Source of the DNA: Sinohyriopsis cumingii
Lineage: Eukaryota > Mollusca > Bivalvia > Unionida > Unionidae
Direction: 5' to 3'
Length of the DNA: 64,000 nt
NCBI GenBank assembly: GCA_028554795.2
Contig: CM068839.1
Span: 12,861,220-12,925,219 of the forward strand
A program made the position numbers and the translations under genes. The notes beneath the pieces were generated by a model that was not told where the DNA came from, did no database searches, and was given only the letters and a program-made list of their open reading frames with translations. Below are positions 25,534-51,880 of this stretch, piece by piece; within the stretch, counting starts at the first letter, position 1; every line of letters starts with the position of its first letter.

Positions 25534-25897
25534 AGTAGTTAAGGGGGGCACTTTACGGACAATGGGAATTAGCATTACAGACCCCCCTGGGTTAGATTAC
25601 GGACAATGGAAATTTAACATGGCGAAAAATCGTGGGTCAGATTACGGACAAGGGGAATTAACATGGCGATAAATCGTGGGTCACTTTACGGACAAGGGGA
25701 ATTTAACATGGCGATAAATCGTGGGTCACTCTACGGACAAGGGGAATTTAACATGGGGAATAGTTTGGGCTTGTTTAGGGACAAGGGGAATTTAACATGG
25801 GATTTTTTTTTAAAAAAAAATTTTTTAAAAAAGGGGTAGGCAATTCAAAGACTATCTCTTTTCGAGAAATATGGCTGGCCCTGAAAAGGGCCTTTGG
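25534..25897 (+). repeat. element 1 left terminal inverted repeat, 364 bp
   Basis: Base-for-base inverse of 45332-45695 as far as read. It contains four or five subterminal direct repeats of about 44-45 bp (each with ACGGACAAGGGGAATTTAAC and AAATCGTGGGTCA). An AT-only palindromic spacer lies at about 25800-25830. The inner end is the histone-type stem-loop, finishing exactly at its CCAAAGG edge. Confidence 0.97.
25877..25892 (-). terminator. histone-type 3' stem-loop after cassette-1 gene
   Basis: On the minus strand this reads GGCCCTTTTCAGGGCC: a 6-bp stem with a TTTC loop, preceded by CCAAA and followed by AGCCA. A purine-rich CGAAAAGAGAT lies about 12 nt further on. It starts 19 nt after the stop codon of 25912-26298. 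The layout matches the histone mRNA stem-loop, cleavage site and downstream element. Confidence 0.8.
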
Positions 25898-25911
25898 GTT
25901 TTCTTCTTCTT

Positions 25912-26298
25912 CTAATTTCTTCTTTTCCTCCACCAAGTTCTTATTTTATCTCCTACACTCTTCTTCTCTTTCTTTTTTTTCTTCTCCTCCTCTTCTTTCT
26001 TCTTCTCTTCCTCCTCTTCTTTCTTCCTCTTTTCATTTTCTTCTTCTTTTTCAATTTTTTCGTTCCAATTGCGTATTCTTATTCTTTCCTCTTCATCCTC
26101 CTTCTCCTCCTTAATCTCTTTCATGACACCACTAATCTTGTCCTTTGCTTTCCTTAAGTTATTAATTTCCATCTTCACACGATGGGGACTATAGGAATAA
26201 TGGTCTTCAACCAGTCTTAATAGCATCTGTTCCATTATTCCTAAGTTGTCTAAAACGTCTTGCAAGGTTTGTATTTTGTCGATTTGGTTTGACGCCAT
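25912..26298 (-). CDS. small coiled-coil protein, terminal cassette 1
   Basis: 128 residues from an ATG about 56 nt after a TATA-like box and just beyond the shared upstream motif at 26356-26386. The N-terminal half (about 1-60) is amphipathic helix. Residues about 60-115 are a lysine/glutamate-rich charged run likely to form a single helix or coiled coil. The C-terminus is basic (WWRKRRN). There is no signal peptide and no known domain. It is one of three tandem cassettes and shares helix spacing weakly with the next two. It ends 19 nt before a histone-type stem-loop inside the terminal repeat. Function unknown. Its terminal position and strong shared promoter suggest an early or regulatory role (inference). 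Confidence 0.6.
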   Translation of the reverse strand: MASNQIDKIQTLQDVLDNLGIMEQMLLRLVEDHYSYSPHRVKMEINNLRKAKDKISGVMKEIKEEKEDEEERIRIRNWNEKIEKEEENEKRKKEEEEEKKKEEEEKKKKKEKKSVGDKIRTWWRKRRN

Positions 26299-26355
26299 CT
26301 TCTTTTTATTCTTTGCAGAATGGTTTGAACGACGAACACTGTGGGTTATTATAGT

Positions 26356-26386
26356 GAAAGCGCGGACGTGATGGAAAACATCCCCC
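26356..26386 (-). promoter_or_regulatory. shared upstream motif plus TATA, cassette 1
   Basis: On the minus strand GGGGATGTTTTCC is followed by CACGTCCGCGCTTTCA, then CTATAATAA about 1-10 nt on. The same motif stands before the other two cassettes, always about 60 nt upstream of the ATG. A further copy without TATA lies at 26430-26457. Confidence 0.75.
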
Positions 26387-26686
26387 TAAAAAACATAAAA
26401 TGGATCTTACCTAGATCATGACCCAACAACGCGCGAACGTGAAGGAAAACATCCCCACTTTTCTCATTTCATATAATATAACCCTAACTATACTCTCCAC
26501 ATACGCTAAGAAACAATAAAGAAACCCATAATCTACTATTCACACAAACTTACTTTACTATTTACTAACACAAACACACAATCACATACACTTCCACTAT
26601 TAATAAAGAGTTAGTGTTTATATTCACACTACTCTACCTACATACATTGGCCAATTGATCGTTATTTCTTTTCTAGAGTATTGGGT

Positions 26687-26702
26687 AGCCCTGAAAAGGG
26701 CT
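26687..26702 (-). terminator. histone-type 3' stem-loop after cassette-2 gene
   Basis: Minus strand AGCCCTTTTCAGGGCT then ACCCA, with CTAGAAAAGAAAT about 12 nt on. It starts 29 nt after the stop of 26732-27091. The outer base pair is A-T instead of G-C, so the stem is conserved by a compensating pair change. Confidence 0.8.
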
Positions 26703-26731
26703 GTTTTGTTTGGAACTTCATGGGCACCTGG

Positions 26732-27091
26732 TTAATGGTGGCACCTTCCAGGCCTGGCGCCACATACGCATCTTATCCCCCAGTTACTTTTTACCTTTTG
26801 GGGGGAGAGAGCAGAGGCAGGATATGTCGCTTCAGAATCCCAATTTTCGCTCTCTGGGATTTTGAAATTTCTTCTCTCCTTTTCCTCCTCCTCTTCTTTG
26901 TTTCTTCTTTCCTCTTTATATCTTCTTTCTTCTTCTTTATATCTTCTCTCCTCCTCTTCTTTGTTTCTTCTTTCCTCCTCTCTTATCCTTCCCTCCTCGA
27001 CAATGGCTTCCGCGGCCAGTTCATTTAATATGCGCCTGGCATATTCCAGATGCACATGAAGCTCCAACAGTTTCTCAAGTCTCGTGTTCAT
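26732..27091 (-). CDS. small coiled-coil protein, terminal cassette 2
   Basis: 119 residues, using the ATG at 27091, which sits 59 nt after TATAAAT. A longer frame starts only at TTG. Residues 1-30 form an amphipathic helix with L-x2-L spacing resembling cassette 3. Residues about 35-75 are repeats of EERRYKEE type. The C-terminal 40 residues are less ordered and contain a CVCGARPGRC segment. No known domain. It is followed by a histone-type stem-loop 29 nt downstream. The 130 bp after this gene and after cassette 3 are alike, so the cassettes arose by tandem duplication. Confidence 0.6.
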   Translation of the reverse strand: MNTRLEKLLELHVHLEYARRILNELAAEAIVEEGRIREEERRNKEEEERRYKEEERRYKEERRNKEEEEEKERRNFKIPESENWDSEATYPASALSPQKVKSNWGIRCVCGARPGRCHH

Positions 27092-27152
27092 TTTTTGGTG
27101 TTGATCAATCAACAAGGGTAGCTGGACTGCCGAACGAGTTTCAATTTATACT

Positions 27153-27183
27153 GAAAGCGCGGACGTGAAGGAAAACATCCCCC
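27153..27183 (-). promoter_or_regulatory. shared upstream motif plus TATA, cassette 2
   Basis: Minus strand GGGGGATGTTTTCCTTCACG, then TCCGCGCTTTCAG and TATAAAT. The TATA lies 59 nt before the ATG at 27091. Confidence 0.75.
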
Positions 27184-27540
27184 TAATAACATAAAATTCA
27201 TCTTACCTAGATCATGACCAAAAAAAAAACAACAACGCGCCGACCTAAAAGAAACACTCACTCACTTTTTTATGATACCCATCACTATTTTAAAATTTTT
27301 ACAAATCACTTCAATAGACTATCCACATAAGCAAAACAATCCAATCTAACTCCAAATATACACCTCAAAAACCCAAAAAACATCATTTTAATCCACTATC
27401 CACACCAACCTACTTTATCACTTACAAACACCAACACATACCCTAACTTTTTTAATAGCAAGAGTTAGTGTTTATTTTCACACTACTCTACTTACACACA
27501 TTGGCAAATTAATAGTTATTTCTTTTCTAGAGTATTGGGT

Positions 27541-27556
27541 AGCCCTGAAAAGGGCT
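27541..27556 (-). terminator. histone-type 3' stem-loop after cassette-3 gene
   Basis: Minus strand AGCCCTTTTCAGGGCT then ACCCA and CTAGAAAAGAAAT. It starts 28 nt after the stop of 27585-27953. Same pair-swapped stem as cassette 2. Confidence 0.8.
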
Positions 27557-27584
27557 GTTTTTTTGTTTGCTATGGCATTCTTTT

Positions 27585-27953
27585 TTAGTTTCTAAGAATG
27601 CGATGTCCTCTGAGGATAGACTTTCTGGCAATAGGTCTGCTTCTTCGGAAAGAGAAGAAGAACTCTTTGGTGTCGATACGGCAATCGACAAAGCCTCTGT
27701 CAGCTTCAGGTTGCTGCTGCTGTTGTTGTTGTTGCTGTTGTTGCTGCTGTTGCTGCTGTCTCTGAAGTCTGTACTTCTCTGTCCATTCTTCTTTTTCCCT
27801 GTTCACTTCTTCTCTGAAGAGCTCTTCTATTAGGTCTTCAGTGATTTTTAACATTCTCACATTCTCTATTTCTTCTGGCTTTGGTATCAGACTGTGTCTG
27901 ACCCTATGCAAATTCACGTAGGCTTCGTTGAGCTTAGCTAGTTTGGAGCACAT
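27585..27953 (-). CDS. small polyglutamine coiled-coil protein, terminal cassette 3
   Basis: 122 residues from the ATG at 27953. The longer frame starts at TTG. Residues 1-60 are helical (L-x2-L-x3-Y-V-x-L), similar in spacing to cassette 2. A run of about 17 glutamines coded by mixed CAG/CAA follows at about residues 67-85. The tail is arginine-rich. Mixed codons suggest the run is kept at protein level and is not only slippage. No known domain. The promoter motif is at 28015-28045 and a histone-type stem-loop lies 28 nt after the stop. Function unknown. Confidence 0.6.
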   Translation of the reverse strand: MCSKLAKLNEAYVNLHRVRHSLIPKPEEIENVRMLKITEDLIEELFREEVNREKEEWTEKYRLQRQQQQQQQQQQQQQQQQPEADRGFVDCRIDTKEFFFSFRRSRPIARKSILRGHRILRN

Positions 27954-28014
27954 CTTCGTAGGAGGATGAGTCGACAATGGATGGTTAGACTGGGAACAAA
28001 CCGGTTCTTAAAGT

Positions 28015-28045
28015 TAAAGCGCGGACGTGAAGGAAAACATCCCCC
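28015..28045 (-). promoter_or_regulatory. shared upstream motif, cassette 3
   Basis: Minus strand GGGGATGTTTTCCTTCACGT then CCGCGCTTTAA. The TATA equivalent is a weak CTTTAAG. The distance to the ATG (about 60 nt) matches the other cassettes. Confidence 0.75.
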
Positions 28046-28162
28046 ACACGGTTTTTTCGAGCCGCAACGTTCATGAGAGGGATAGTAAGAAATGAAAGAG
28101 CATCAATTCAACATTCTTATAGCTAAACAAACCACAAAGGCATTTTTTTTCTTCAAAACACA

Positions 28163-28175
28163 ACATTTTTTATTC
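28163..28175 (-). terminator. polyadenylation signal after the protease gene
   Basis: AATAAA on the minus strand in an AT-rich 240-bp spacer between the protease stop and the cassette-3 promoter. No histone-type stem-loop occurs here, unlike in the terminal cassettes. Confidence 0.5.
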
Positions 28176-28284
28176 AAAAATCACTTAACACTAAACAACA
28201 ACTCTAACATTTTTAACAATAATCCAACACTATAACATCAAACAATTTTTTCAAATCACAAACATTTTTTTCTCAATGCACAAT

Positions 28285-28845
28285 CTACTTTAAACAGGGC
28301 TGACAACGTTGTGAATGAAATTGTGATTTCCACTGTTGGAAATCATTAGGCCATTGATGGACACTACGTTTCCTAGCTTGAGACAAAAGATAAGCATAAT
28401 GGTCACAAAACCATCGATCTACTTTCACATCGTTTCTAGCAGAAGAACGAGGATCGAAATGAGTCACTAAATGTTCTAAGGAATAGTCCAGGCTGCGATG
28501 ATGCAGAAAATACACACAGTACTGTCCACACACCAAGGAATCTGTGCCTTGTAATTTCACGTTATTGAATCGGGTGGTTTGAGCATTTCTTCTCATAAAG
28601 TCGATGATATCGTCTTCCAAAGGGGGCAATCCGTACGAATCGAAATATTCCACACATCCTTCTTGAGGAAAGTAGACGGCTACCCAGTGGGTTCCTGGGA
28701 GATGACTTTCGTCCGTGTTGATCACGTAAGCTTGATGGTCTTTAGGTTTGCGATGAGGGAGTTCATCTTTAGCACAGACGACAGGATTCCAAGAAGCCGT
28801 ATACGAACTGTGGTTCAAAAGGTAATAAAGTTCCCAGGTATCCAT
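28285..28845 (-). CDS. PRO: adenain-like cysteine protease (Polinton PRO)
   Basis: 186 residues, close to the usual 200 for adenovirus-type maturation proteases (C5/Ulp1 fold). Catalytic features in order: His in GTHWVAVYF (about residue 53), acidic partner in EYFDSYG (about 69), and nucleophile Cys in CGQYCVYFL (about 112) with the preceding Gln of the oxyanion hole. The family cleaves capsid and core precursors, often after GG or GxG sites in virion proteins. It is the last gene of the virion block, 21 bp from the next gene upstream. The frame is intact. An equivalent in element 2 would lie beyond the window. Confidence 0.93.
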   Translation of the reverse strand: MDTWELYYLLNHSSYTASWNPVVCAKDELPHRKPKDHQAYVINTDESHLPGTHWVAVYFPQEGCVEYFDSYGLPPLEDDIIDFMRRNAQTTRFNNVKLQGTDSLVCGQYCVYFLHHRSLDYSLEHLVTHFDPRSSARNDVKVDRWFCDHYAYLLSQARKRSVHQWPNDFQQWKSQFHSQRCQPCLK

Positions 28846-28866
28846 TGATTTGTGTTTTTTTCTTCT

Positions 28867-29346
28867 TCACAGGTAATAATAAGTCGTCAATTCGATTCTG
28901 ACTTTTTGCTTGAAAATGTCTGACGAATAAACGGTTATTCGTTCTGTTTCCTCACTCTGATTCAGGAGAGCTTCGATACGATGGATCTCTTGAGTGGTTA
29001 ATGGTGGACAAGAATGTTCACGCAAGTCTTTATACCACTGGTGCAACACGTCTTTGTTCGAGATGAGACTCCAAGCTTCGTCCAGATACTCGTCCAATTT
29101 TTCTTCTTGACTCAACATCAGGCATTTATCGTGTTGAATTTGACTGGGATGATCGTTTTGACATCCATAACAATTTTTCTTGATCAATTCCGTCATTTTG
29201 TCGACCAAGTGGTTGGCAAAACAGGAGACTAAATGGGCTTCTTGTTCTGGCCATCTTGACTTCATCATGATCACTTCTTCCACAGTCTCCTCACATTTCA
29301 TGTCCAAAGTTTCTCCACTAGGTAAAGAGGAATAACAGTCTTCCAT
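28867..29346 (-). CDS. conserved Polinton Cys/His protein
   Basis: 159 residues from an ATG that lies 49 bases inside the end of the capsid gene in another frame. Central CYGCQNDHPSQIQHDKC (about residues 59-75) could bind zinc. The rest is mostly helical and acidic. Proteins with a C-x-G-C..HPSQ..H..C core next to the capsid gene are common in Polintons as far as I recall. Their role is not established. Possibly a transcription or assembly factor (inference). Confidence 0.7.
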   Translation of the reverse strand: MEDCYSSLPSGETLDMKCEETVEEVIMMKSRWPEQEAHLVSCFANHLVDKMTELIKKNCYGCQNDHPSQIQHDKCLMLSQEEKLDEYLDEAWSLISNKDVLHQWYKDLREHSCPPLTTQEIHRIEALLNQSEETERITVYSSDIFKQKVRIELTTYYYL

Positions 29347-30674: not shown

Positions 30675-30690
30675 TTTTTTGTCTCTTTTC

Positions 30691-31110
30691 TCAATAATCG
30701 AAAACGTCTAAGTCTCGAACGGTTCTTCTTTTCTTGGCCTTTCTCGCTTGAAGTCTGGTGAAAGGGTGTTTTCTTCGTCGTCGTCTTTTTCTGCCTTGTC
30801 CTTGCTGAATGCCTGATTCGGTAGCGTGCAGGGCATTTATAGGTGTGTCTCGTCGGCCCAAAATGTCTTTGCCCGTTTGCAGCAAGACATTTTTGCCTGC
30901 CCTCATGAAGGCTTCTTTAGGGTTTTGTTTGTCGATGATGACATTTTGGAGAAATTCTTTGCCTTGCGTCAGTGACGCATCTTTCAAGGCGTGCAATCCG
31001 CGTGTCACCATCGGTTTCAACACCGGGACCACCGAACGAAAGGCCGATTTTAACATGTCTCCTAAACCGTGTCCTCGCTGTCGAGCAACCCCTTGGTACA
31101 CTGGATACAT
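30691..31110 (-). CDS. basic core-like virion protein (pX/pVI-like candidate)
   Basis: 139 residues. Residues about 14-45 form an amphipathic helix (GLGDMLKSAFRSVVPVLKP), a middle helical stretch follows, and residues about 103-132 are strongly basic (RKRRRRRKH, KKRR). Membrane-active helix plus basic tail resembles adenovirus core/pVI-type proteins. Homology cannot be shown by eye. It lies between the two capsid genes with 7- and 16-bp spacers, in line with a virion role. Confidence 0.6.
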   Translation of the reverse strand: MYPVYQGVARQRGHGLGDMLKSAFRSVVPVLKPMVTRGLHALKDASLTQGKEFLQNVIIDKQNPKEAFMRAGKNVLLQTGKDILGRRDTPINALHATESGIQQGQGRKRRRRRKHPFTRLQARKAKKRRTVRDLDVFDY

Positions 31111-31117
31111 GACTTAC

Positions 31118-32451: not shown

Positions 32452-32456
32452 GATGG

Positions 32457-37400: not shown

Positions 37401-37615
37401 GGAGGTGGTAAGTACTGATCGTAAAGAGTCCACAAAGAATCGGCTGGTAAACGAAATCCCAAAAAACAAGTCACTAAGACACACACCACTTGTCGTCCCA
37501 AATTGAATGGATACAGTTCTTGTAATAATCGATGGTAATGATCCACGGTTTAAATATGGTCATTGAGTTCCTTCCACGGAATCTGTTGGATGACATGTGA
37601 CATAAGTCGTGGCAT
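37391..37615 (-). pseudogene. 74-codon small gene with a nonsense codon in element 1
   Basis: The frame matches 59029-59253 across its whole length. CAA is replaced by TAA at 37550-37552, leaving 21 residues. Most other differences between the copies leave the protein unchanged, which supports a real gene. It overlaps the end of the F-box-like gene upstream and the start of the tail-anchored gene downstream. Confidence 0.6.
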
Positions 37616-38078
37616 GGCAGCCTGTTTTTATAGTCTCTTTGTTTCGGAAACAATACACGTACTTTCTAGCCAGAGATCTTCGTTCTCCAGTAGGGAATCT
37701 AAATCTTGCATACTGTAACCGAAACTTCAGAGTTCGTTTAGAAGTTTCCTCTTCCTCTAAGTAGATTCCACGTAAAATATGTTGATAATCCTTTAACTTG
37801 TCTTCCTCAATGTATTGCTGTAGGTGAATCTCGAAGTAACCAAAATAATGAACATTTCGATCATTCACTAACTCAAAGTGTTGAACAAGGTCTGACCACT
37901 GAAACAATTTCTGACGAATCAGTTCTCTTATACCATTCAGGTACCAGTGGTTAAAGATCTGGTGACGTAACGGATGCAATTGTTCTTTACGTTTGACTTG
38001 TATTTTGACCAGCTCTCGGTAAATGCGTTCTCTCAACTCCACAGGCAAAGCACGAATGTTCTCTAGCAAAGTATCCAT
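37560..38078 (-). CDS. F-box-like protein, copy 2 of element 1
   Basis: 172 residues. Residues 5-25 (ENIRALPVELRERIYREL) resemble an F-box start (LP-x-E-L-x2-x-I). The remainder is helical and basic, with a conserved NHWYLNGIRELI segment at about 46. It is paralogous to 38091-38546. Its first residues match the truncated copy 58325-58597 of element 2 and the rest match 58560-59057, so it looks like a recombinant of two tandem copies. Function inferred: Skp1 binding and redirected ubiquitination. The F-box call is by motif only. Confidence 0.6.
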   Translation of the reverse strand: MDTLLENIRALPVELRERIYRELVKIQVKRKEQLHPLRHQIFNHWYLNGIRELIRQKLFQWSDLVQHFELVNDRNVHYFGYFEIHLQQYIEEDKLKDYQHILRGIYLEEEETSKRTLKFRLQYARFRFPTGERRSLARKYVYCFRNKETIKTGCHATTYVTCHPTDSVEGTQ

Positions 38079-38090
38079 GAATAGGTCATA

Positions 38091-38546
38091 CTAAATCCTC
38101 TTTGGTCTGACACAAGAAATGTACTCTTTGCACAAACATGGTTTCGCTTCAGTGTCGAATTTAAATCGTTGAGTCACTAATCTACACATTACAATTCGTT
38201 CAGAAGTTTCCTCTTTCACTAAGTTGACATTCTGTTCAAGATGTTGGTAATTCGTTAACTCTTCCTCTGGAATTCGATGCAGTACGTTTACAATGATGTA
38301 GGTAGAATCGTCCATACCAAACCAATCCTTTTTAAAACTAGAGGATCGTTGATCAATGTCTGTCCGATGGAACACTTTCAATTGAATCAATCCTTGTATA
38401 GCCTTCAGGTACCAGTGGTTCAAACACCGGTGACGTAACGGATGCAATTGTTCTTTACGTTTCACTTGTATTTTGACCAGCTCTCGGTAAATGCGTTCTC
38501 TCAACTCCACAGGCAAAGCACGAATGTTCTCTTGTAAAGTATCCAT
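38091..38546 (-). CDS. F-box-like protein, copy 1 of element 1
   Basis: 151 residues with the same N-terminal ALPVELRERIYRELVKIQ block and an NHWYLKAIQGLI segment. C-terminal RPKRI. The orthologue in element 2 is 57854-58312, and the two differ by few residues. It lies 12 bp from copy 2 and 32 bp from the BIR gene, suggesting one transcription block. Cys residues near the end (CLCKEYISC) could bind metal but this is not clear. Confidence 0.6.
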   Translation of the reverse strand: MDTLQENIRALPVELRERIYRELVKIQVKRKEQLHPLRHRCLNHWYLKAIQGLIQLKVFHRTDIDQRSSSFKKDWFGMDDSTYIIVNVLHRIPEEELTNYQHLEQNVNLVKEETSERIVMCRLVTQRFKFDTEAKPCLCKEYISCVRPKRI

Positions 38547-38578: not shown

Positions 38579-39316
38579 TCAATGTCTCGGTCCCACTAAG
38601 GGTAAGTAATGACAATTCGGTGACCATCGAGCATGTTCTACGTAGGCCGAATCTTGCGGTTCCCAGTGGTGAAGTGTCACATCGCAACTGAAGCACCTGA
38701 CTTTATCTCCTTCGCCCAAGTAGAAAAATCCGGCTCTGGCTAATTCTTCGGGGGTCGGTCCTCCCAGATACTTTGGCCATTTTCCTTTGAACGATTGAAG
38801 ACGATTTTCAAAGTCGCAGTATTCCGACAAACGCACAGGAAACGAATATTCGTTTTTCACAGGTTCGTTTCGATGAGGGTTGAGTGACATGGGTAGGAGT
38901 TTGCTCAAGGCTGGATGACATCCGTAGGGGGGTAGACGTGAAGGTGAACATTCCCCTTTAAACCCGGTAAAATGTCTAAGAGGACGAGCGGCATCACTTT
39001 CGCATCCCTCAGGTTTGACACGCACAGCATCACTTTCCATGACAGGGGCAGTGAGAACAAAGTTCCCATGATGCTTTACGGCATCGCTCAGGTCACAACG
39101 TACAGCATCGTATCCATCGCAAGGCTCACAATCGCACTCGTCTGCAAACTCCGTTACGCAATTACAATGGTAACCACATGGACAATCGCAGTTTCCTTCT
39201 GGACATTTTCCGTCGCAATGCCTGGGTCTTATCCATCCAGTATTAGTCACACTAGAGGAAAATACAACTTTTTTACAATCCCCAAACTGGAACGATGTCT
39301 CTTTCAAAGTATTCAT
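38579..39316 (-). CDS. BIR-domain protein (IAP-like) with Cys-rich N-terminus
   Basis: 245 residues. The C-terminal BIR domain lies at about 165-240: R.QSFKGKWP, then ARAGFFYLGEGDKVRCFSC, W..QDSAYVEHARWSPNC, giving the C-x2-C..H..C zinc site and the BIR fold signature. The N-terminal 30-75 region is Cys-rich (CPEGNCDCPCGYHCNC) and is shortened in element 2. There is no RING. Related virus proteins bind caspases or IAP antagonists and block apoptosis. That function here is inferred. Confidence 0.85.
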   Translation of the reverse strand: MNTLKETSFQFGDCKKVVFSSSVTNTGWIRPRHCDGKCPEGNCDCPCGYHCNCVTEFADECDCEPCDGYDAVRCDLSDAVKHHGNFVLTAPVMESDAVRVKPEGCESDAARPLRHFTGFKGECSPSRLPPYGCHPALSKLLPMSLNPHRNEPVKNEYSFPVRLSEYCDFENRLQSFKGKWPKYLGGPTPEELARAGFFYLGEGDKVRCFSCDVTLHHWEPQDSAYVEHARWSPNCHYLPLVGPRH

Positions 39317-39348: not shown

Positions 39349-42300
39349 CTATCGATCTTGCCTAGGGTTCCTTTTTATATACAGACCAATACCGACGTGA
39401 CCGTACGGTAAGGTGAAATGATTGGGAAGTCGCACTCGCTTCTGGTACACGATTTGATAAACTTTTTCCAAAGGTCGACTGACGATGTGGTGAGTGGGTA
39501 AACGTACAATCTTGTTCGGTTGGTAAGTGGTCACTTTAAAGTTTCCATCCTCTTCCGATTGCAAGGCTTCTTTCAATACCCCAAAGTTGACCACTCGACT
39601 GGTACGATGATTCAGAGTCAGTCCTTTCACTTTGCACGTCGTGTGCACTTCTCCTTGTTTGTCCCGGTATTCGTAGCCGTAATTTTTGGGACCGCCACTG
39701 ACGAAACTTAGAATCTTGTCGTCGGGATGCTCGTCTGTCCAGGCTCCTAAACGGTCTCCTTCGATGTCAGGGTGATGTTGAATCGGGTGATGGATGTAAA
39801 TGCAACTGTCCGTGTCAAAGTACAGGACGCGTTCTTCTAACAGTTCTAAAGCTTCGTACAATTTTAAGCGAGCATGGGCTGTTACGTAAGCCGCAATGAT
39901 GACATTTCCAAAGGGGTCGTCTTGTACAAAGTCCAGATCTTCTTCGTAATTGACTAAGATCAAATCCTCGCGAACGACGTCCACGTGTTTCATGAATTTG
40001 GTTTTGTCGTGAATCATCTGAAAGTAGCGGGAAGGTTCTGTCAAATATTCCGTCTTGGGTAAACACGGGCGTTGTGCCATTTTACCCCACAAGCAATTTA
40101 ACATCACTTTGGCAAACGATCGCCTGCCTTCGTTTTTCTCGATGTGGTCTAAAGTGATGCCTTCTTGTTCGTAATATTTCTCTTTGAATTTTATTTGGTC
40201 TTCGGGAGTGTGACACCAGGAAGGATAGCCGCTGGCTTCTTGCTTCAGTTTCAAAAAGGCATCCACGTAGTCGGCGAAAATGCCTTTCTGAGTAGGGTCA
40301 CCCTTGTGGTAATGTTGTGTCTTGGGAAAGTGGCAAATTTCGTACACTTCTAACAGTTGGTATCCCATGTCCAGAGCTTTGAACAATTCTACGCTGACCC
40401 AGGTTCCCGTCAAGGCCCGTTCTTCCTGGCTGTGCTGACAAGGTTGGTCTTGGTTGCACGTTTCGGCACAAGTACGGCACAAGGGAAACATCAGTTTGCC
40501 TTGACAATGGTGAGGTAAGACGGGATGGTATAGGTTCGTGGGAGGCAAAACTTTGCACTTGATCAAGCCTTCGTATTGTCGAATGTTGACCAGGTCGATG
40601 TGTTCCGTCAGCAATTGCGGGTGCCCTACAGGAAAGCGACAATATTTGCACACGTAGGGATGCAGCGAACACACGTCCAAGTATTTGATTTCTTCTCCTT
40701 TCTCTTCGTCGGCTTGGTACAGCAAACAGGTGGCATTGGTCCTTCCTCCGTACAAACTATCCCTCGGGTTCAGCGGGTCCATGAACTGTTAACTTTCCAC
40801 GAGGCGTTTAAACTCGGGATCGGTTTTCAAACGGTGATCGTATTCGTGTTCCCACATTTCCACCACTTGGTATCCTTGCTGTTCTAACTTTAGGCGCCGC
40901 TGACAAGTGTCCTGGTACAAGTCTTCCATGGTTCGTTGCAAAAACTGATTTTTAGTGCCACGGTCAGGGTAACAGACGGGACATCCGTGAAATAAGCAAC
41001 CGTTAAACTCGTACACGATCTTGGGGTTTTCTAAGTCCCAGCCATCGACCGAATACGTTCCGATGGTCTTTTCGCCCCCTCCGTTGCGAGCATGCTGAAT
41101 CCACTTGTCTTCCTTGTCACACAAGTAATGTAACCAGCGTAAGGCTTTGACCGAGTATTGACGTTTGACAAAGTGGGTCGTTTGAGGGCTGATGACAGCC
41201 ACGGTGTTTTCAGGCATGAATCGTTGGCGGTACACTAAGGAACACGCTTTGGCAATGGTGCAAGCTTCTTTCAAAGGATCGACCCCTCCGTGTTCCATGA
41301 ACAGTTCTCGAAATTTTCCACAGCAACGCCGTAAAATGTCCACGTCGGAACGACAATACTTTAACATTTCTTCCTGAAAGTCGAAGGGGTCAGAGGCGTG
41401 AGCCTGATACCAAGCGTAGAAAGCTTCTCGTTGTTCGGTACGCATGTTGTCGGGGTCGTAATAGTGAGCCTCAGGTAAATGGGGTAGAACGGCGTGTTGA
41501 TTGGCTTCCGTATTGAAAAAGTGTGGAAAGTACCCTTTAGCCATTTCTGTCATTCCAAACGTTTTAGGCATTCGGCTCAAGGCATGGCCAAGTAGCTCAT
41601 CGAATCTTTAAACTGTACTTGTCCCACTTGCATGAAAATGATTTTGGCTCCGTTCAAAGTGACTTTAGGACGTTCGGTGCCTTGTTCCGTATAGTACCTC
41701 AAAAGAAACTGTCCATCGTATCCGGAGAAATTGTGAGCCATCACCGTGGCATGACGATGACAATCTCCGTAACGTTCGATATCCTCTTGGCTCCACGTCT
41801 TGTCGACGGGGTCTAAGACCCATTGGGCAAAATCGGCTAACGTGTTTGGCCCCCGAAAGATTTTTTCACGTCCTCCGGGAATCTTGCTGCAGTGAGGGCA
41901 ATGACTGAAGATAGGTTCTTGAATGCACTTCTCGCACGCTCGATGAGCCACGCAGAAATTAGGAATGTGAATGCCGGTCTCTTGCATGCATTCGAAATCG
42001 AAAAAGATGAAATTGCCTTTCTTCTTGTGACCGTCCTCTTTCTCTGGTGGGGGTTGGTATTTTTGCACGTAACATTGGTGTTCCAAGTCCACGATGCGGT
42101 GACAAATGTGACATTTTTTCTTTCCTGAACATACGTGTGCCTTGGTATTATTGGTACGTATGACTTGTTCACACGTAGAGCACAATCTCAGCAGTTGACA
42201 AGCGCATTTCTTCTGTGAACCTTGCGTCTTCAAATGTTGTTGGTAACAGGTAGGGCTGACAAACGTGCGCAGACAAGTTGAACAAGGCACTGGTTCTTCG

Positions 42301-43529: not shown

Positions 43530-44000
43530 ATGGAAGAGACTAACCAGATGGAACGTTTCGTCAGAGCTTTGCGAGGGGTCATTAGAAAATTCTCTTCAGA
43601 CCAGCCTACGGACTACTCTCCTTCCTTTAGAGATAAAAGTCAAGATACTTGCTATATCTGTCAGAAGAAAGGGCATTGGTCTTCAGAGTGTCCAGACCGT
43701 GAAAAAAGAACAAAAACAGGGACTAAAAAAGACAAAAGTCAAGATACCTGTTATTATTGTAAAGAAAAAGGACATTGGTCTCCAGATTGCCCAAAAAAGA
43801 AACAAGAGGAGTCAGAAGAAAAGAAGGATTCTTCAGAAGAAGAGAGGAATTCTTCAGAGGAAGAGAGGGATTCTTCTGAGGAAGAAAGAAGACAGGTGAA
43901 GAAAAAGAAACAGGAGAAAAAAAGAAGAAGGGAAGAAAGCGAGGAGGAAGAAGAGGAAAAGAGTGTGACGGTGAAGAAATTCAAAAAACAGAGAGACTAA
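43530..44000 (+). CDS. CCHC zinc-knuckle protein with acidic serine repeats
   Basis: 156 residues from the ATG at 43530. The longer GTG frame would start before the expected transcript start. Two knuckles: CYICQKKGHWSSEC and CYYCKEKGHWSPDC (C-x2-C-x4-H-x4-C), about 30 residues apart. Then SSEEER repeats (possible casein kinase 2 sites) and a KKKKQEKKRRREE tail. It probably binds single-stranded nucleic acid. It is next to polB on a shared promoter, so a replication accessory role is possible. It is followed by AATAAA at 44018 and 44087, with no stem-loop. Confidence 0.8.
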   Translation: MEETNQMERFVRALRGVIRKFSSDQPTDYSPSFRDKSQDTCYICQKKGHWSSECPDREKRTKTGTKKDKSQDTCYYCKEKGHWSPDCPKKKQEESEEKKDSSEEERNSSEEERDSSEEERRQVKKKKQEKKRRREESEEEEEEKSVTVKKFKKQRD

Positions 44001-44086
44001 ACAAGGAGAAAAGAAAAAATAAATGAACTTTTTATTAAAGTGTTGAGTTGTGAATTGTGAATTGGATTGTAAAAAATGGAGAAAAG

Positions 44087-44092
44087 AATAAA
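44087..44092 (+). terminator. polyadenylation signal of the zinc-knuckle gene
   Basis: AATAAA conserved in element 2 (TTTATT at 52041-52046). The convergent neighbour ends with a stem-loop instead, a clean contrast within 200 bp. Confidence 0.6.
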
Positions 44093-44251
44093 TGAATGAT
44101 ATAAGGTAAGAGTCTTTGAGTTTTGATTTTAAAATAAGAAGCTACACTCACGCACTCATACACAGACACGTACTATAAGGGTAAAATGGGTGGGGTTTAT
44201 TTGTGACTTATTGGCAAATTGAAATTGTATTTCTTCTCGAGAAATGTGGGT

Positions 44252-44267
44252 GGCCCTGAAAAGGGCC
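44252..44267 (-). terminator. histone-type 3' stem-loop after the Q/E-rich gene (element 1)
   Basis: Minus strand GGCCCTTTTCAGGGCC followed by ACCCA and, about 12 nt on, CTCGAGAAGAAAT. It starts 27 nt after the stop of 44295-44864. This is the full consensus layout. Confidence 0.85.
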
Positions 44268-44294
44268 TTTTCTCTTTATGGTGCAGGGGTGAGT

Positions 44295-44864
44295 TTAAGC
44301 AATCAATTTTAACTGCCTTAAGCCTTTGCCACGGCCAAGGCCTACTTCTGGACTGCGTAATGATGATAATGATTGGGTTGAAATCACTAAGGGTGGTACG
44401 GTAGGCTTAGTCACAGGGTTGACGTGTTTAGCTCGGGAAGGTCGTATTCTCTTCGGTCGTGATAAAGAAGTCTGATACATTTGTTTCAGACTTCTTAACT
44501 CCGCTAAAATGTCCAACAGTACCGTGACCGTTTGATTTTCACCCTCTTGTTTCTTTGCTGCTACTTCTTCTTGCTGTTGTTTTTTTCTTACCTCTTCTTC
44601 TTCTTGTTGCTGTTGCTGTAAGAGAAAAGCCTGTTCCGCTTCCTTTTGTCGTTGTATAAATTTCTCCAATTCTTCTTTCTGTCTCTGTCTAAAATTCTCC
44701 ACTTGCGGTAATGAAGAAGGTAACGAAGGTTCCGGAACAAATTCTTGCGAGGAGAGAAAATCGACAAAATCCCAATTCACCTCTTCTGAAAGTAAGTCCG
44801 GGTTCCCTTGGGCGGTCTCCCCTGCTGGTGCACCCCATTGGATCGTTTTCTGAGTTTCCGTCAT
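44295..44864 (-). CDS. Q/E-rich coiled-coil protein of the terminal divergent pair
   Basis: 189 residues. The acidic N-terminus (VNWDFVDFLSSQEF, about 28-41) could be an activation-type patch. The long coiled coil at about 55-110 is full of QKEEL and QQQQ. A helix with TVLLDILAELRSLKQMY follows, then a basic tail with RPKRIRPSRAKHV. 90% or more identical to 51267-51839. No known domain. The layout of acidic patch, dimer helix and basic end could suit a DNA-binding regulator (inference). Its promoter has a CRE and TATA. It ends at a histone-type stem-loop. Confidence 0.75.
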   Translation of the reverse strand: MTETQKTIQWGAPAGETAQGNPDLLSEEVNWDFVDFLSSQEFVPEPSLPSSLPQVENFRQRQKEELEKFIQRQKEAEQAFLLQQQQQEEEEVRKKQQQEEVAAKKQEGENQTVTVLLDILAELRSLKQMYQTSLSRPKRIRPSRAKHVNPVTKPTVPPLVISTQSLSSLRSPEVGLGRGKGLRQLKLIA

Positions 44865-45083
44865 GTTGAATCACTGTCGCATAGATTGACTGCACACAAG
44901 CGCTAGCGAATCTATATAGACTACGTGACGTCACAGACTGCTCTCTTCGGATTGGATGCGGGCTGACTGAATTCTGTAACGCGTGTTCGGATTGGTGAAT
45001 GAACTCAATCCGTTTCAATCCTTTCTGTCCCTATAAATAAGCGCAGTTCACTGCATTGATTCACCTATTGTAGGAGCCTCAAC
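44865..45083. promoter_or_regulatory. divergent promoter with CRE, two CCAAT boxes and TATA boxes (element 1)
   Basis: For the minus gene: TATATA at 44913-44918 and a perfect TGACGTCA at 44926-44933. Two inverted CCAAT boxes (ATTGG) stand at 44951 and 44991. For the plus gene: CTATAAATA at about 45031, 50 nt before the ATG. All are conserved in element 2. Confidence 0.75.
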
Positions 45084-45314
45084 ATGTGGACCGACGTTGA
45101 ATCTTCAACCCTTGTGTCAACAATGATGTTCAGGACGGACATGCTCATGTATGTCCGATCCAAGTGGACCGTTGTCCACAGGACCAGCAGCAGCCTGTGG
45201 ATAAGAAGAGTCTATATAGAGAGACAAGGTTGCCTCAAGAGGACTCTGATGTACGGCCCTGCTGTAAGACGAAGTTTGAGGACAAGAAGATGTCGCAAAT
45301 GCCCTTTATGTTAA
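45084..45314 (+). CDS. small basic protein of the terminal divergent pair
   Basis: 76 residues, starting MWTDV, arginine-rich, ending CRKCPLC (possible zinc pair). Counterpart 50814-51047 has 77 residues. The copies differ at about a fifth of positions and by a 3-base indel, so the frame is kept, which favours coding. No known domain and no resemblance to a histone. The stop is 22 nt before a histone-type stem-loop that forms the inner edge of the right terminal repeat. Confidence 0.65.
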   Translation: MWTDVESSTLVSTMMFRTDMLMYVRSKWTVVHRTSSSLWIRRVYIERQGCLKRTLMYGPAVRRSLRTRRCRKCPLC

Positions 45315-45331
45315 GGGCATATTAACATAAA

Positions 45332-45695
45332 CCAAAGGCCCTTTTCAGGGCCAGCCATATTTCTCGAAAAGAGATAGTCTTTGAATTGCCTACCCCTTTT
45401 TTAAAAAATTTTTTTTTTTAAAAAAATCCCATGTTAAATTCCCCTTGTCCCTAAACAAGCCCAAACTATTCCCCATGTTAAATTCCCCTTGTCCGTAGAG
45501 TGACCCACGATTTATCGCCATGTTAAATTCCCCTTGTCCGTAAAGTGACCCACGATTTATCGCCATGTTAATTCCCCTTGTCCGTAATCTGACCCACGAT
45601 TTTTCGCCATGTTAAATTTCCATTGTCCGTAATCTAACCCAGGGGGGTCTGTAATGCTAATTCCCATTGTCCGTAAAGTGCCCCCCTTAACTACT
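45332..45695 (-). repeat. element 1 right terminal inverted repeat, 364 bp
   Basis: Inverse of 25534-25897. It ends CTACT, followed directly by the GAGATT duplication. Its inner edge is CCAAAGG of the stem-loop at 45337. Confidence 0.97.
45337..45352 (+). terminator. histone-type 3' stem-loop after the small basic gene (element 1)
   Basis: GGCCCTTTTCAGGGCC preceded by CCAAA (45332-45336), followed by AGCCA and then CGAAAAGAGAT at 45365-45375. Both flanks match the histone consensus closely. Confidence 0.85.
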
Positions 45696-45701
45696 GAGAT
45701 T
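45696..45701. repeat. 6-bp target-site duplication, right copy (GAGATT)
   Basis: Identical to 25528-25533. Confidence 0.95.
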
Positions 45702-47630: not shown

Positions 47631-48480
47631 GAACGCATATAAGGTTTTAGTAGAACTGTAAAATCAACGTAAAGAACGCGTATCAGGATTTAGTAGAACT
47701 GTAGAATCAACATAAAGAACGCGTATCAGGATTTAGTAGAACTGTAGAATCAACATAAAGAACGCGTATCAGGATTTAGTAGAACTGTAAAATCAACATA
47801 AAGAACGCGTATCAGGATTTAGTAGAACTGTAGAATCAACATAACGCGTATCAGGATTTAGTAGAACTGTAAAATCAACATAAAGAACGCGTATCAGGAT
47901 TTAGTAGAACTGTAGAATCAACATAAAGAACGCGTATCAGGATTTAGTAGAACTGTAAAATCAACGTAAAGAACGCGTATCAGGATTTAGTAGAACTGTA
48001 AAATCAACGTAAAGAACGCGTATCATAATTTAGTAGAACTGTAAAATCAACGTAAAGAACGCGTATCAGGATTTAGTAGAACTGTAGAATCAACATAAAG
48101 AACGCGTATCATAATTTAGTAGAACTGTAGAATCAACATAAAGAACGCATATCAGGATTTAGTAGAACTGTAGAATCAACATAAAGAACGCGTATCAGGA
48201 TTTAGTAGAACTGTAGAATCAACATAAAGAACGCGTATCAGGATTTAGTAGAACTGTAGAATCAACATAAAGAACGCGTATCAGGATTTAGTAGAACTGT
48301 AGAATCAACATAACGCGTATCAGGATTTAGTAGAACTGTAGAATCAACATAAAGAACGCGTATCAGGATTTAGTAGAACTGTAAAATCAACATAAAGAAC
48401 ACGTATCAGGATTTAGTAGAGCTGTAGAATCAACATAAAGAACGCGTATCAGGATTTAGTAGAACTGTAAAATCAACATG
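47630..48480. repeat. 43-bp minisatellite, about 20 copies
   Basis: Units AAAGAACGCGTATCAGGATT, TAGTAGAACTGTAGAATCAACAT. Two units share a 5-base deletion (CATAACGCG), so block duplication occurred within the array. Confidence 0.95.
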
Positions 48481-49495
48481 ATATACAATTTAGATGATAG
48501 TTCACATGGGTTGCATTCTTACAATATTTTACATACATCTGCTGACGGAAATGGTCAAAGTCGAACGAGCCATATCAAGTCTACCTGAGTCTAGTCTCTT
48601 TTTCTTTCTTTCCTATAGCAAACATGAAATTATGAAACCATTAAAACTTGTGTGGCTAGAAAACGCGGGTCAATAACAGACCTATGATGACTGAATTCTT
48701 TCAATACAATTATTCCTTCCTGAAATATTGATGATTACCCATGATTAATTACTGTGGCTACTTTTTTTTGAACGAATTGTCTACATAACGGTAATGCGTA
48801 GAGATACAGTTATTAACCATAGGCTTCGTAATTATTGGTTATGCGCAAGGCCAGATTAAAGTCGGAGCCAATGAAACAATTGCATCAGATCTCGGCCTTG
48901 GACCACGTCTTTCAGAAAGGATTCTGACCTGATAACATTCTAGTTGGTACGAATGATGCATATTTGCAGTCATACGCGACTTTTGTCATTACAAACAGGA
49001 AAAAAACCCAGCTTAAAACCACATCGCTGAACAGAATTTAACCAAATTTGTTAACAAGCATCCTGGCCAGAAGTTTAAATTTATACACACGCTACTGGTT
49101 GGCTGCCAAATATGGCCACTGTTCCCAAAAAATAGAAAAAAAAGTTATTTTCAAAGCTGGCTTAACAGAATTTGGTCATGTTTAACTGAAAGGATTCATG
49201 CATTGCGAACTTTCAGATTTGTACAAATGATCTGCTTTTGCAAATTAAAATGGGAAAATATCAATTCTAAAGAAAAATACAGAGCAAAATTTAACCAATA
49301 TAAATCATCCTGAGAAGAAGAACTTTAAATTCTATATGCATGATGCCGATATGCCACCGTTACTATAAAATGGGAAAACCTTTAAATCGACCTTGTTCAA
49401 AATAGGATGAAAACCATCCTGACATGAGGACGTCTCAAATTTGGCCGCCATTACCTATGTCAGTGACATTTAAACGACTTAAAATTATTTTAAAA
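48481..49495. other. non-coding host DNA
   Basis: No gene recognised. Confidence 0.5.
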
Positions 49496-49529
49496 AATGA
49501 GCCGTCCACTGGGTGTCCTTTGGTCCCCG

Positions 49530-50180
49530 ACTGTGTCGTTGACCTAGTCGCTGGGTCGTCGAACGAGTTGATGTGTCGTCGACTGTGTCGCTGACTTGGT
49601 CGATGAGTCGCCGACTGGATCGCAAACTTGGTCTTATAGTCTCCTACTGGGTCGGATAGTAAGTCGCAGAGTCGTCGACTGTGTCGCTGACTTGTTCCCA
49701 GAGTCGCCCACTGTGTCGTCGACTGAGTCGCTGGGTCGTCGACTGGATCACAACTTGGTCGCAGAGTCGCCGACTGAAACACAGATTCATTGTCTGTGTC
49801 GCACACTTGGTTGCAGAGTCCTGACTGGGTCGCAGAGTCGTCGTCTGGGTCGCTGACTTGGTCCCAGAGTCGAGTCCCTGGGTCGTCGACTGGATCACAA
49901 ACTTGGTCGCAGAGTCACCGACTGGGTCACAGATTCGTTGTGTCGCAGACTTGGTTGCAGAGTCCCGACTGGGTAGCGAAGTCGTCGACTGATTCGCTGA
50001 CTTGGTTGCAGAGTCGCCTACTGGGTCGCAGAGTGAGCTGAGGAGTCGTCGACTGTGTCGCTGGCTGTGCTGCAGAGTCGCTGACTAGGTTGCATACTTT
50101 GTCGCAGAGTCGTCGACTGGGTCGCTGACTGTTTCACAGTCACCGACTGGACCACTGAGTCGTCGACTGTGTCTCCGACA
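49530..50180. repeat. degenerate GTCG-rich array
   Basis: Repeated phrases such as GAGTCGTCGACTG, GTCGCTGACTTGGTC and GGTCGCAGAGTCGCC in variable order, rich in CpG and GTCGAC. Frames open on both strands because stop codons are rare. There is no sign of a protein. Confidence 0.8.
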
Positions 50181-50391
50181 AGGTGTCACGGAACTGTATA
50201 AACCTTTTATTTATTAAATACATGTACTCCGGTTTCGTTTTTTATGTACAACGATACCTGAGGGTGATATATGTATATTGTACAAAGATTTCGAAATAGT
50301 GAGTTCGGTTCATCCTATGCCGCACGTGCGAAGTGCTTTCGATGGGAATACTTCCAGTGCGTTGACGATGAATTGGGGCATCTTCTATGTA

Positions 50392-50796
50392 AGTAGTAAT
50401 AGGGGTCACTTTACGTACAATGGGAATTAGCATTACAGACCCCCCCCCCTCCGGTCCAGATTACGTACAATGGAAATTTAACATGGCGAAAAATCGTGGG
50501 TCAGATTACGTACAATGGGAATTAACATGGGAATAAATCGTGGGTCACTTTACGTACAAGGGGAATTTAACATGGGAATAAATCGTGGGTCACTTTACGT
50601 ACAAGGGGAATTTAACATGGGGGAATAGAGTTTGGGCTTGTCTAGGGACAAGGGGAATTGAATATGGGATTTTTTTTTTTTTTTTTTAAAAATTTAAATT
50701 TAAATTTAAATTTAAATTTTAAAAAAAAGGGGTAGGCAATTGAAAAGTCATTCTCTTTTCGAGAAATATGCGTGGCCCTGAAAAGGGCCTTTGGAT
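50392..50796 (+). repeat. element 2 left terminal repeat
   Basis: Same plan as element 1: about four subterminal units with TACGTACAAGGGGAATTTAA and AAATCGTGGGTCA. An AT-only spacer lies at about 50669-50728, here expanded to repeated AAATTTAAATTT palindromes. It then ends at the stem-loop and CCAAAGG edge (inner end inferred). Confidence 0.85.
50774..50789 (-). terminator. histone-type 3' stem-loop after the small basic gene (element 2)
   Basis: Minus strand GGCCCTTTTCAGGGCC preceded by CCAAA, followed by ACGCA and CGAAAAGAGAAT. It starts 24 nt after the stop of 50814-51047. Confidence 0.85.
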
Positions 50797-50813
50797 TTAT
50801 GTTAATGTATCCA

Positions 50814-51047
50814 TTAACATAAAGGGCACCGCATTGGTCTTCTTCTTGTCCTTAGGCTGCGTCTCACTGTTGGCCCGTAAATCAGCACTCTTTTGAGGCA
50901 TCCTTGTCTTTCTACGTAGATCCTACGTATCCACAGACTGGTGTTCGTCCTGTGGACAACGGTCCACTTGGATCGGACATACATGAGCATGTCCTTCCTG
51001 AACATCATCCTTGACACAAGCGTTGAAGAGTGCACATCGGTCCACAT
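50814..51047 (-). CDS. small basic protein of the terminal divergent pair (element 2)
   Basis: 77 residues, counterpart of 45084-45314. Conserved blocks include DMLMYVRSKWTVVHRT and RRSLRTRR, ending in RCPLC. Function unknown. The shared frame with an in-frame indel supports translation. Confidence 0.65.
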   Translation of the reverse strand: MWTDVHSSTLVSRMMFRKDMLMYVRSKWTVVHRTNTSLWIRRIYVERQGCLKRVLIYGPTVRRSLRTRRRPMRCPLC

Positions 51048-51266
51048 GTTGAGGCGCCGAGAACAGGTGAATCAATGCAGTGAACTGCGCTTATTTATAG
51101 GTAGAGGAAGGATTGAAACGGATTGAGTTCATTCACCAATCCAAACACGCGTTACAAAATTCAGTCAGCCCGCATCCAATCCGAAGAGAGCAGTCTGTGA
51201 CGTCAGTTGGTCTATATAGATTTGCTAGCGCTTGTGTGCAGTCAATCTATACGACAGTGATTCAAC
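51048..51266. promoter_or_regulatory. divergent promoter with CRE, CCAAT and TATA boxes (element 2)
   Basis: CCAAT at 51136-51140 and 51176-51180, TGACGTCA at 51198-51205, TATATA at 51213-51218, and toward minus CTATAAATA at about 51092-51100. Order and spacing match 44865-45083. Confidence 0.75.
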
Positions 51267-51839
51267 ATGACGGAAATTCAGAAAACGATCCATTGGGGTG
51301 CACCAACAGGGGAGACTGCCCAAGGGAACCCGGATTTACTTTCAGAAGAGGTGAATTGGGATTTTTTGGATTTTCTCTCCTCGCAAGAATTTGTTCCGGA
51401 ACCTTCGTTACCTTCTTCATTACCGCAAGTGGAAAATTTTAGACAGAGACAGAAAGAAGAATTGGAGAAATTTATGCAACGACAAAAGGAAGCGGAACAA
51501 GCTTTTATCCTACAGCAACAGCAGCAAGAAGAAGAGGTAAGAAAAAAACAACAGCAACAACAGCAAGAAGAAGTAGCAGCAAAGAAACAAGAGGGTGAAA
51601 ATCAAACGGTCACGGTACTGTTGGACATTTTAGCGGAGTTAAGAAGTCTGAAACAAATGTATCAGACTTCTTTATTACGACCGAAGAGAATACGACCTTC
51701 CCGAGCTAAACACGTTAACCCTGTGACTAAGCCTACCGTACCACCCTTAGTGATTTCAACCCAATCATCATCATTACGCAGTCCAGAAGTAGGCCTTGGC
51801 CGTGGCAAAGGCTTAAGACAGTTAAAGTTGATTGCTTAA
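51267..51839 (+). CDS. Q/E-rich coiled-coil protein (element 2)
   Basis: 190 residues, counterpart of 44295-44864. It differs mainly in the length of the Q run (about residue 95) and one deleted residue near the C-terminus. Frame intact. It is followed by a stem-loop 25 nt downstream. An AATAAA also lies just before that loop, so either 3' end mode is possible in this copy. Confidence 0.75.
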   Translation: MTEIQKTIHWGAPTGETAQGNPDLLSEEVNWDFLDFLSSQEFVPEPSLPSSLPQVENFRQRQKEELEKFMQRQKEAEQAFILQQQQQEEEVRKKQQQQQQEEVAAKKQEGENQTVTVLLDILAELRSLKQMYQTSLLRPKRIRPSRAKHVNPVTKPTVPPLVISTQSSSLRSPEVGLGRGKGLRQLKLIA

Positions 51840-51864
51840 ACTCACCCCTACACCGAAATAAAAA

Positions 51865-51880
51865 GGCCCTTTTCAGGGCC
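51865..51880 (+). terminator. histone-type 3' stem-loop after the Q/E-rich gene (element 2)
   Basis: GGCCCTTTTCAGGGCC, then ACCCA (51881-51885), then CTTGAAAAGAAAT from 51891. This is the closest match in the window to the full histone layout. Confidence 0.87.

Follow-up and report, generated by a model that had tools for sequence, protein, structure and literature searches.

The locus raises the question of why genes at the ends of virus-like transposons should close with a hairpin of the kind that ends animal histone messages, and what such an ending might do for them. The window, a stretch of 64,000 nucleotides from contig CM068839.1 of the bivalve Sinohyriopsis cumingii, holds two Polintons with seven terminal genes, each of which is followed by this hairpin.

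The two Polintons and their genes

Element A spans 20,162 bp (25534–45695), with the ends AGTAGTTAAG...CTTAACTACT, and is bordered by a 6-bp target duplication, GAGATT (25528–25533 and 45696–45701). Its left terminal inverted repeat (25534–25905, 372 nt) is 99% identical to the right one (45324–45695). Element B (50392–64000) runs off the end of the window; its start was placed visually, by resemblance to the end of A. Matches above the cut-off were obtained in both elements for a retroviral-type integrase with a chromodomain (rve and Chromo), a protein-primed DNA polymerase B (DNA_pol_B_2, in broken reading frames) and an A32-like packaging ATPase (Pox_A32). A cysteine protease match (Peptidase_C5), looked for in A, was below its cut-off (E 0.011). 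The Polinton identity proposed in the initial annotation is well supported by the integrase, polymerase and ATPase matches in both elements and, in A, by the inverted repeats and the 6-bp target duplication, features shared with Polintons/Mavericks and adintoviruses.

Three terminal genes of A, all on the minus strand, encode proteins of 128 aa (25912–26298), 119 aa (26732–27091) and 122 aa (27585–27953), none of which matched a family above the cut-off. A further gene of A (189 aa, 44295–44864, minus strand), with relatives among metagenome proteins, is divergently paired with an arginine-rich 76-aa gene (45084–45314, plus strand, pI 11.1). Their counterparts in B encode 190 aa (51267–51839, plus strand) and 77 aa (50814–51047, minus strand), respectively. 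All seven genes are short and consist of a single ORF, and the dN/dS values for the four that are comparable between A and B are low, at 0.15 and 0.21. The idea that they are captured histones was ruled out, as no histone family appeared in the Pfam matches of the seven proteins to E 0.5. Structure prediction rendered the 190-aa protein as a single long helix (pTM 0.26).

A second type of gene ending occurs in the same elements. The protease-like gene that closes the core gene block (28285–28845, minus strand; match below the cut-off) has no stem-loop and carries AATAAA 110 nt after its stop codon. The zinc-knuckle gene of A (43530–44000, plus strand) likewise lacks the stem-loop, with AATAAA 17 and 86 nt after the stop, as does its counterpart in B (52130–52603, minus strand; identified by comparison with A), with AATAAA at 83 nt. 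Two types of gene ending within one element, with histone-type hairpins on the terminal genes, distinguish A and B from known Polintons/Mavericks and adintoviruses. The description of hairpins as ending all of the terminal genes holds for the element ends inside the window, the other end of B lying outside it.

The histone-type 3′ signal

The seven copies of the 16-nt stem-loop claimed at the outset were all recovered in place as exact matches in the window; 100 shuffles gave a mean of 0.06, and none reached seven. When RF00032, the Rfam covariance model of the histone 3′ stem-loop, was run over the window as had been suggested, it matched all seven hairpins. Five exceed its curated gathering score of 34 bits: those at 25877–25892 (minus strand, 35.6 bits; after the 128-aa gene, inside the left terminal inverted repeat of A), 44252–44267 (minus strand, 37.9 bits; after the 189-aa gene), 45337–45352 (plus strand, 35.6 bits; after the 76-aa gene, inside the right repeat of A), 50774–50789 (minus strand, 37.1 bits; after the 77-aa gene) and 51865–51880 (plus strand, 42.5 bits, the top score of the seven; after the 190-aa gene). 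The remaining two, after the 119-aa and 122-aa genes (26687–26702 and 27541–27556, both on the minus strand), are A-U variants of 31 bits (E 6.4e-5), below the gathering score.

Every hairpin lies on the sense strand, 19–29 nt 3′ of a stop codon, within the 19–30 nt first given; of 40,292 random placements of the 16-mer in element A, 483 put it 15–35 nt 3′ of a sense stop. The five bases directly 3′ of the hairpin are ACCCA at four sites and one-base variants at three (AGCCA at two, ACGCA at one), and CCAAA precedes the stem at three sites, both as originally described. These five bases open a spacer with a purine-rich element, located at 26662–26686, 27516–27540, 44228–44251 (minus strand) and 51881–51904 (plus strand) for ACCCA, at 25852–25876 (minus strand) and 45353–45377 (plus strand) for AGCCA, and at 50749–50773 (minus strand) for ACGCA. 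The purine-rich element is present at all seven sites, but its core (AAAAGA at six, AGAAGA at 44252) starts 9 nt after the fifth base, past the expected cut, rather than the approximately 12 nt initially estimated. An AATT(T/G)GCC or AATTGCC box follows 31–33 nt after all seven hairpins, for example at 51912–51919 (plus strand).

The 6-bp stem (G-C as second pair, U-A as last) and its UUUC loop, the A-rich 5′ flank, the ACCCA-type cut site and the purine core about 10 nt on are those of metazoan replication-dependent histone 3′ ends (SLBP/U7). The short single-ORF genes with the hairpin near the stop resemble metazoan histone genes as well, and the layout is the same as in the mouse H2a pre-mRNA shown in PMC7026596. 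Unlike in the metazoan system, the genes are non-histone and lie within a virus-like transposon, the first pair is A-U in two copies, and the AATT(T/G)GCC box is an extra conserved element. The histone-type signal put forward in the initial annotation is well supported by the RF00032 scores, together with fixed spacing, strand, position and conservation.

It is very improbable that the hairpin arose by convergence, as the element's own terminator or packaging signal comparable to mimivirus poly(A) hairpins, which are palindromic. Such an origin would fit the three of seven hairpins in the terminal repeat region, a second weak hairpin predicted just downstream at four of the five sites folded and, going by the available part of PMC4402537, the termination of transcripts by hairpins in other large DNA viruses. 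The mimivirus palindromes described there also stand at the 3′ ends of viral genes, but their sequence shows no conservation; a viral RNase III-like enzyme cuts inside the hairpin, and polyadenylation follows. Here, by contrast, the sequence, the UUUC loop, the A-rich 5′ flank and the ACCCA-type 3′ flank agree with the histone model, and the 30 reading frames scanned yielded neither an RNase III nor a poly(A) polymerase.

Conservation of the cassette within and beyond the window

The seven hairpins are not seven independent events, as their flanking sequence sorts them into three families (25877/45337/50774, 44252/51865 and 26687/27541). In the 6 of 16 possible between-family pairs that were compared, 14–16 of 16 hairpin positions are identical, against 7–12 of 25–28 in the stop-to-hairpin stretch and 7–18 of 48–53 in the far 3′ part. 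Between the 76-aa and 77-aa genes, 49% of synonymous sites are different, but the hairpins behind them are identical. The first base pair of the stem has been switched on both sides, from G-C to A-U, and all 42 of 42 cells are paired. This is the only compensatory change in the stem; shuffles matched the covariation score in 20 of 500 cases and the count of both-side pairs in 257 of 500.

These comparisons bear on the possibility that the cassette is a relic, taken over from a histone gene of the host and multiplied through terminal repeats and gene duplications, with ordinary or cryptic poly(A) sites being used. A single cassette common to the 3′ ends, two hairpin copies within near-identical inverted repeats, and AATAAA beyond the hairpin in two of the seven genes would all suit this origin. 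However, a relic would be expected to decay, whereas the hairpin has been kept while identity in the neighbouring stretches falls to 15–48% between families; the switch of the first stem pair on both sides and the retention of the cassette in the tails of two relatives also argue against a relic, which is considered quite unlikely.

The two relatives, P0012 and P0142, correspond to two different terminal genes, and the proteins have no likeness to each other; their tails nevertheless match (E 2.8e-9). In the window, the P0012 tail has its best seven matches at the seven hairpins (E 9e-5 to 0.2). When this tail was back-translated, all six stem pairs were possible, as for 67 of 4,000 random hexapeptides. 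The P0142 tail allows five of six, the first base pair not being encodable, a level reached by 622 of 4,000. As read from these protein tails, the cassette appears to be present in both relatives, without the first pair in P0142.

Other hairpin-bearing elements were sought in IMG/VR with two exact hairpin patterns, which returned three loci. Two of them (L001 and L002) had no Rfam match at E 0.01, and L003 was set aside solely since its match sits inside an opposite-strand ORF. IMG/VR searches with the integrase and the 190-aa protein found no relatives. Related integrases occur in ten loci from assemblies labelled bacterial, eight at 34–49% identity and two at 24–26%. Neither RF00032 at its gathering score nor an ad hoc hairpin rule of our own gave a match in any of these ten loci with more distant integrases. 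This test is weak for terminal regions because only five of the ten loci (L004–L008) extend past a protease match (by approximately 0.8–2.9 kb) and no inverted repeats were found in the five checked.

The 2025 survey PMC12220804 lists, in its available part, six RF00032 histone 3′ UTR stem-loop matches in 8,300 Polinton-like virus genomes. The same Rfam family is thus recorded in related elements, and the comparison goes by that count, the text at hand giving neither gene context nor mechanism. The original statement that nothing of the kind had been reported in Polintons stands as far as discussion in that text is concerned, and has to be amended for the six hairpins counted.

Proposed processing of the terminal messages

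The seven terminal genes carry histone-type 3′ signals, with hairpin and spacer of the kind found in animal histone genes, and it is quite probable that their messages are cut by the host histone machinery and left without poly(A). SLBP would bind the hairpin, and U7 snRNP would guide cleavage by CPSF73 just after it, leaving the message without a poly(A) tail; its stability and translation would then track DNA replication. Each element would produce two classes of message, with ordinary poly(A) signals ending the messages of the core genes and of the zinc-knuckle gene, and hairpins ending those of the outermost genes. Three of the outermost genes are read towards the element end, into the terminal repeat region, and at these three sites none of 11 kinds of poly(A) hexamer was found between the hairpin and the element end. 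AATAAA lies between stop and hairpin in one of the seven genes.

Pairing of the spacers was assessed with U7 RNAs from other animals. With human and mouse U7, which are not the host's, none of the seven spacers paired better than most controls; with Drosophila U7, again not the host's, pairing was clearly above controls at one of seven.

Animal histone messages owe their coupling to replication to this same hairpin. On balance, we lean towards the broader reading that an animal Polinton lineage has co-opted the replication-dependent histone 3′ system, so that polyadenylated core messages would be joined by SLBP-bound terminal messages without poly(A) only during DNA copying. The element may benefit from expression in cells that copy DNA (dividing, germline or early embryonic) and from a compact end signal within its terminal repeat.

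Histone-type processing could instead serve as a compact 3′ signal, or as a cell-type alternative to poly(A), without S-phase coupling. Timing is not readable from sequence, and AATAAA beyond the hairpin in two of seven genes would leave room for a polyadenylated form, which misprocessed histone transcripts can also take (available text of PMC6303110); C. elegans histone genes carry both hairpin and poly(A) signal, according to the accessible part of PMC1924863. Since the same hairpin couples animal histone messages to replication, this uncoupled use is regarded as rather unlikely.

To our knowledge, the histone-type ending without poly(A) is so far known from histone genes alone. If the co-option reading is true, non-histone transposon genes with the full signal break this rule, a mobile element is coupled to DNA replication via its RNA ends, and the terminal genes provide a natural experiment on the effect of the hairpin by itself, while poly(A)-selected RNA-seq overlooks them.

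For the paired terminal genes, CCAAT boxes raised the idea of a divergent promoter like that of histone genes. It is not claimed because the two CCAAT per 219-nt region were matched by 1,413 and 1,504 of 20,000 shuffles. The 219-nt regions also hold a candidate TGACGTCA site and candidate TATA boxes.

Hairpins downstream of seven Polinton genes

The seven copies of a 16-mer hairpin described in the initial annotation are present, exact, at 25877, 26687, 27541, 44252, 45337, 50774 and 51865, where 0.06 copies would be expected, and no eighth copy occurs across the 64 kb when up to two mismatches are allowed. An Rfam scan of the whole window gave five matches to RF00032, the histone 3´ stem-loop, at the gathering score, plus one tRNA. 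All seven sites match this model, although the two A–U variants (26687 and 27541; 31 bits, E 6.4e-5) do so only below the gathering score, in a scan relaxed to E 0.5 that detected no other site in the window. As also claimed, every hairpin lies on the coding strand shortly after a stop codon, with a gap of 19–29 nt. A purine core accompanies each of them, but it begins 9 nt past the fifth 3´ base instead of the proposed distance of about 12. Furthermore, a box reading AATT(T/G)GCC or AATTGCC is found 31–33 nt 3´ of all seven hairpins (e.g. 51912–51919).

The mouse H2a pre-mRNA, as seen in H2a constructs (PMC7026596), has the layout found in the window: hairpin, ACCCA, 11 nt and AAAGAG. None of the seven hairpin-gene proteins matches a histone family (Pfam, E up to 0.5). 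At the sequence level, there is strong evidence that these seven non-histone Polinton genes have a 3´ end of the histone type; from what is established about the histone system, U7 cleavage, absence of poly(A) and S-phase coupling would be expected.

Pairing with U7 was assessed in 21 combinations using the human, mouse and Drosophila sequences given in PMC7026596, which may differ from that of the host. With human and mouse U7, none of the seven spacers pairs better than most controls, the best case being equalled by 1,006 of 3,000. With Drosophila U7, the pairing of the 50774 spacer beats all 3,000 controls and 1,000 shuffles; that of 44252 is equalled by 285 of the 3,000 controls, those of 25877 and 45337 by 485, and the other three by 826–1,544. 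Some predicted duplexes place the stretch containing the AATT(T/G)GCC box against the 5´ end of Drosophila U7. The spacer is also predicted to form a second hairpin at four of five sites folded (51887–51904, 44229–44245, 50751–50765 and 25855–25867), a fold that could either mask the U7 target or expose it.

Conservation of the cassette

Dissimilar flanks divide the seven 3´ regions into three families (25877/45337/50774, 44252/51865 and 26687/27541). In one alignment of these regions, covering 6 of the 16 possible between-family pairs, the hairpin is identical at 14–16 of 16 positions and the stretch after it at 17–22 of 28–30, with 7–12 of 25–28 between stop and hairpin and 7–18 of 48–53 in the far 3´ part. 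Both hairpin differences are a change of the first base pair from G–C to A–U, leaving 42 of 42 cells paired. This change gives weak support, since shuffles equalled the covariation score in 20 of 500 cases and the number of pairs changed on both sides in 257 of 500.

Between the two Polintons of the window, elements A and B, 49% of the synonymous sites in the 76/77-aa genes (45084 and 50814) differ, yet the downstream hairpins are identical. Farther out, the similarity between the terminal repeats rises (92% over 177 nt); therefore, exchange between repeats may contribute to the identity of these hairpins.

Metagenome relatives of the 190-aa protein (P0012) and of the 77-aa protein (P0142) extend beyond the usual stop. 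The two window proteins have no likeness to each other, and the tails of their relatives match each other (E 2.8e-9). Among the window matches to the P0012 tail, the best seven fall at the seven stem-loop sites (E 9e-5 to 0.2), ahead of an unrelated match at 0.28. The best four of the P0142 tail are also stem-loop sites (E 4e-4 to 0.01), the remaining three scoring 0.13, 2.3 and 3.2 among unrelated matches. Since the tails of unlike proteins match both each other and the stem-loop sites, two different genes in related elements also seem to end in the cassette, including a stretch able to encode AATTGCCAA past the purine core; there the cassette is read from protein sequence. By back-translation, the P0012 tail is compatible with the full stem and the P0142 tail with five of six pairs.

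RF00032 is absent from ten loci that encode related integrases, in assemblies labelled bacterial; five of these loci reach past the protease match. It is possible that the hairpin is limited to a single Polinton lineage, or that it occurs just in hosts possessing the SLBP system. Polinton-like fragments in which the order of the core genes is conserved (L004–L008 and L011) lie in assemblies bearing bacterial labels (Escarpia and Bathymodiolus symbionts, Limnohabitans and others); they are probably contamination from the host or another eukaryote.

Polyadenylation signals and a previous tally

AATAAA and ATTAAA were searched within 250 nt of 35 reading frames. The protease-like gene (28285), the zinc-knuckle gene (43530) and its counterpart in B (52130) have AATAAA at 17–110 nt without a hairpin and seem to close other transcription units. 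Two core-block frames (33592 and 59244) have it at 10–13 nt, and the other 23 hairpin-less frames have neither hexamer in this range. Neither is present in four of the seven hairpin genes; AATAAA lies past the hairpin in two (27585 and 44295) and between stop and hairpin in one (51267). Because C. elegans histone genes carry hairpin and AATAAA together (PMC1924863), its presence does not alone exclude histone-type processing. None of 11 hexamer variants occurs from hairpin to element end at the three terminal-repeat sites.

The initial annotation knew of no report of this signal in Polintons. However, six histone 3´ UTR stem-loop matches are tallied among 8,300 Polinton-like virus genomes in PMC12220804, with none in cryptophyte elements and no comment in the sections consulted, so the raw signal had already been counted in this broad group. 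The gene context, orientation and mechanism of the hairpins are absent from those sections. Among the matches listed in open-licence PMC, judged by title and abstract start, no paper addressed 3´ ends of the histone type in genes of viruses or Polintons.

The hairpin genes and their elements

Comparison of A with B by simple counting, without a significance test and covering the four hairpin genes that have counterparts, gave dN/dS values of 0.21 for the 189/190-aa pair (44295 and 51267) and 0.15 for the 76/77-aa pair. Metagenome relatives number 20 for the 190-aa protein, 16 of them aligned, and two for the 77-aa protein. The 76-aa protein is arginine-rich (pI 11.1). The charged 128-aa and 119-aa proteins (25912 and 26732) match TAF4 and the acidic region of CAF1A below cut-off, probably because of their composition.

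Four copies of the motif GATGTTTTCCWTCACGTYCGCG are present in the window, on the minus strand (26382, 26453, 27179 and 28041), each preceding one of the three left-end hairpin genes, with two copies before a single gene; the motif resembles a promoter element common to these genes. The 189/190-aa and 76/77-aa genes form a divergent pair, recalling divergent histone gene pairs, and their intergenic regions (44865–45083 and 51048–51266) contain TGACGTCA, TATA boxes and CCAAT boxes, the number of the last showing no excess over chance.

Element A (25534–45695) is bounded by inverted repeats of 372 nt, 99% alike, with a GAGATT target duplication, while element B, inverted relative to A, begins at about 50392 and continues past the end of the window. 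Each element contains an rve-chromo integrase, DNA_pol_B_2 pieces, a Pox_A32-type ATPase and a BIR (inhibitor-of-apoptosis) domain gene (38579–39316 and 57190–57831). Among the 120 integrase relatives listed of 2,543, those with organism names come from Saccostrea, Ostrea and Branchiostoma, which points towards a marine animal as host. The polymerase frame is broken at the corresponding place in A and B (40782–40789 and 55233–55240); decay in an ancestor, an intron or a site of frameshifting could account for this shared break. A second break (41571–41577) is found in A and not in B. Finally, both elements carry duplicated genes of unassigned function (37560–38546 and 57854–59057; 172/151 aa in A), 87% alike over 210 nt.
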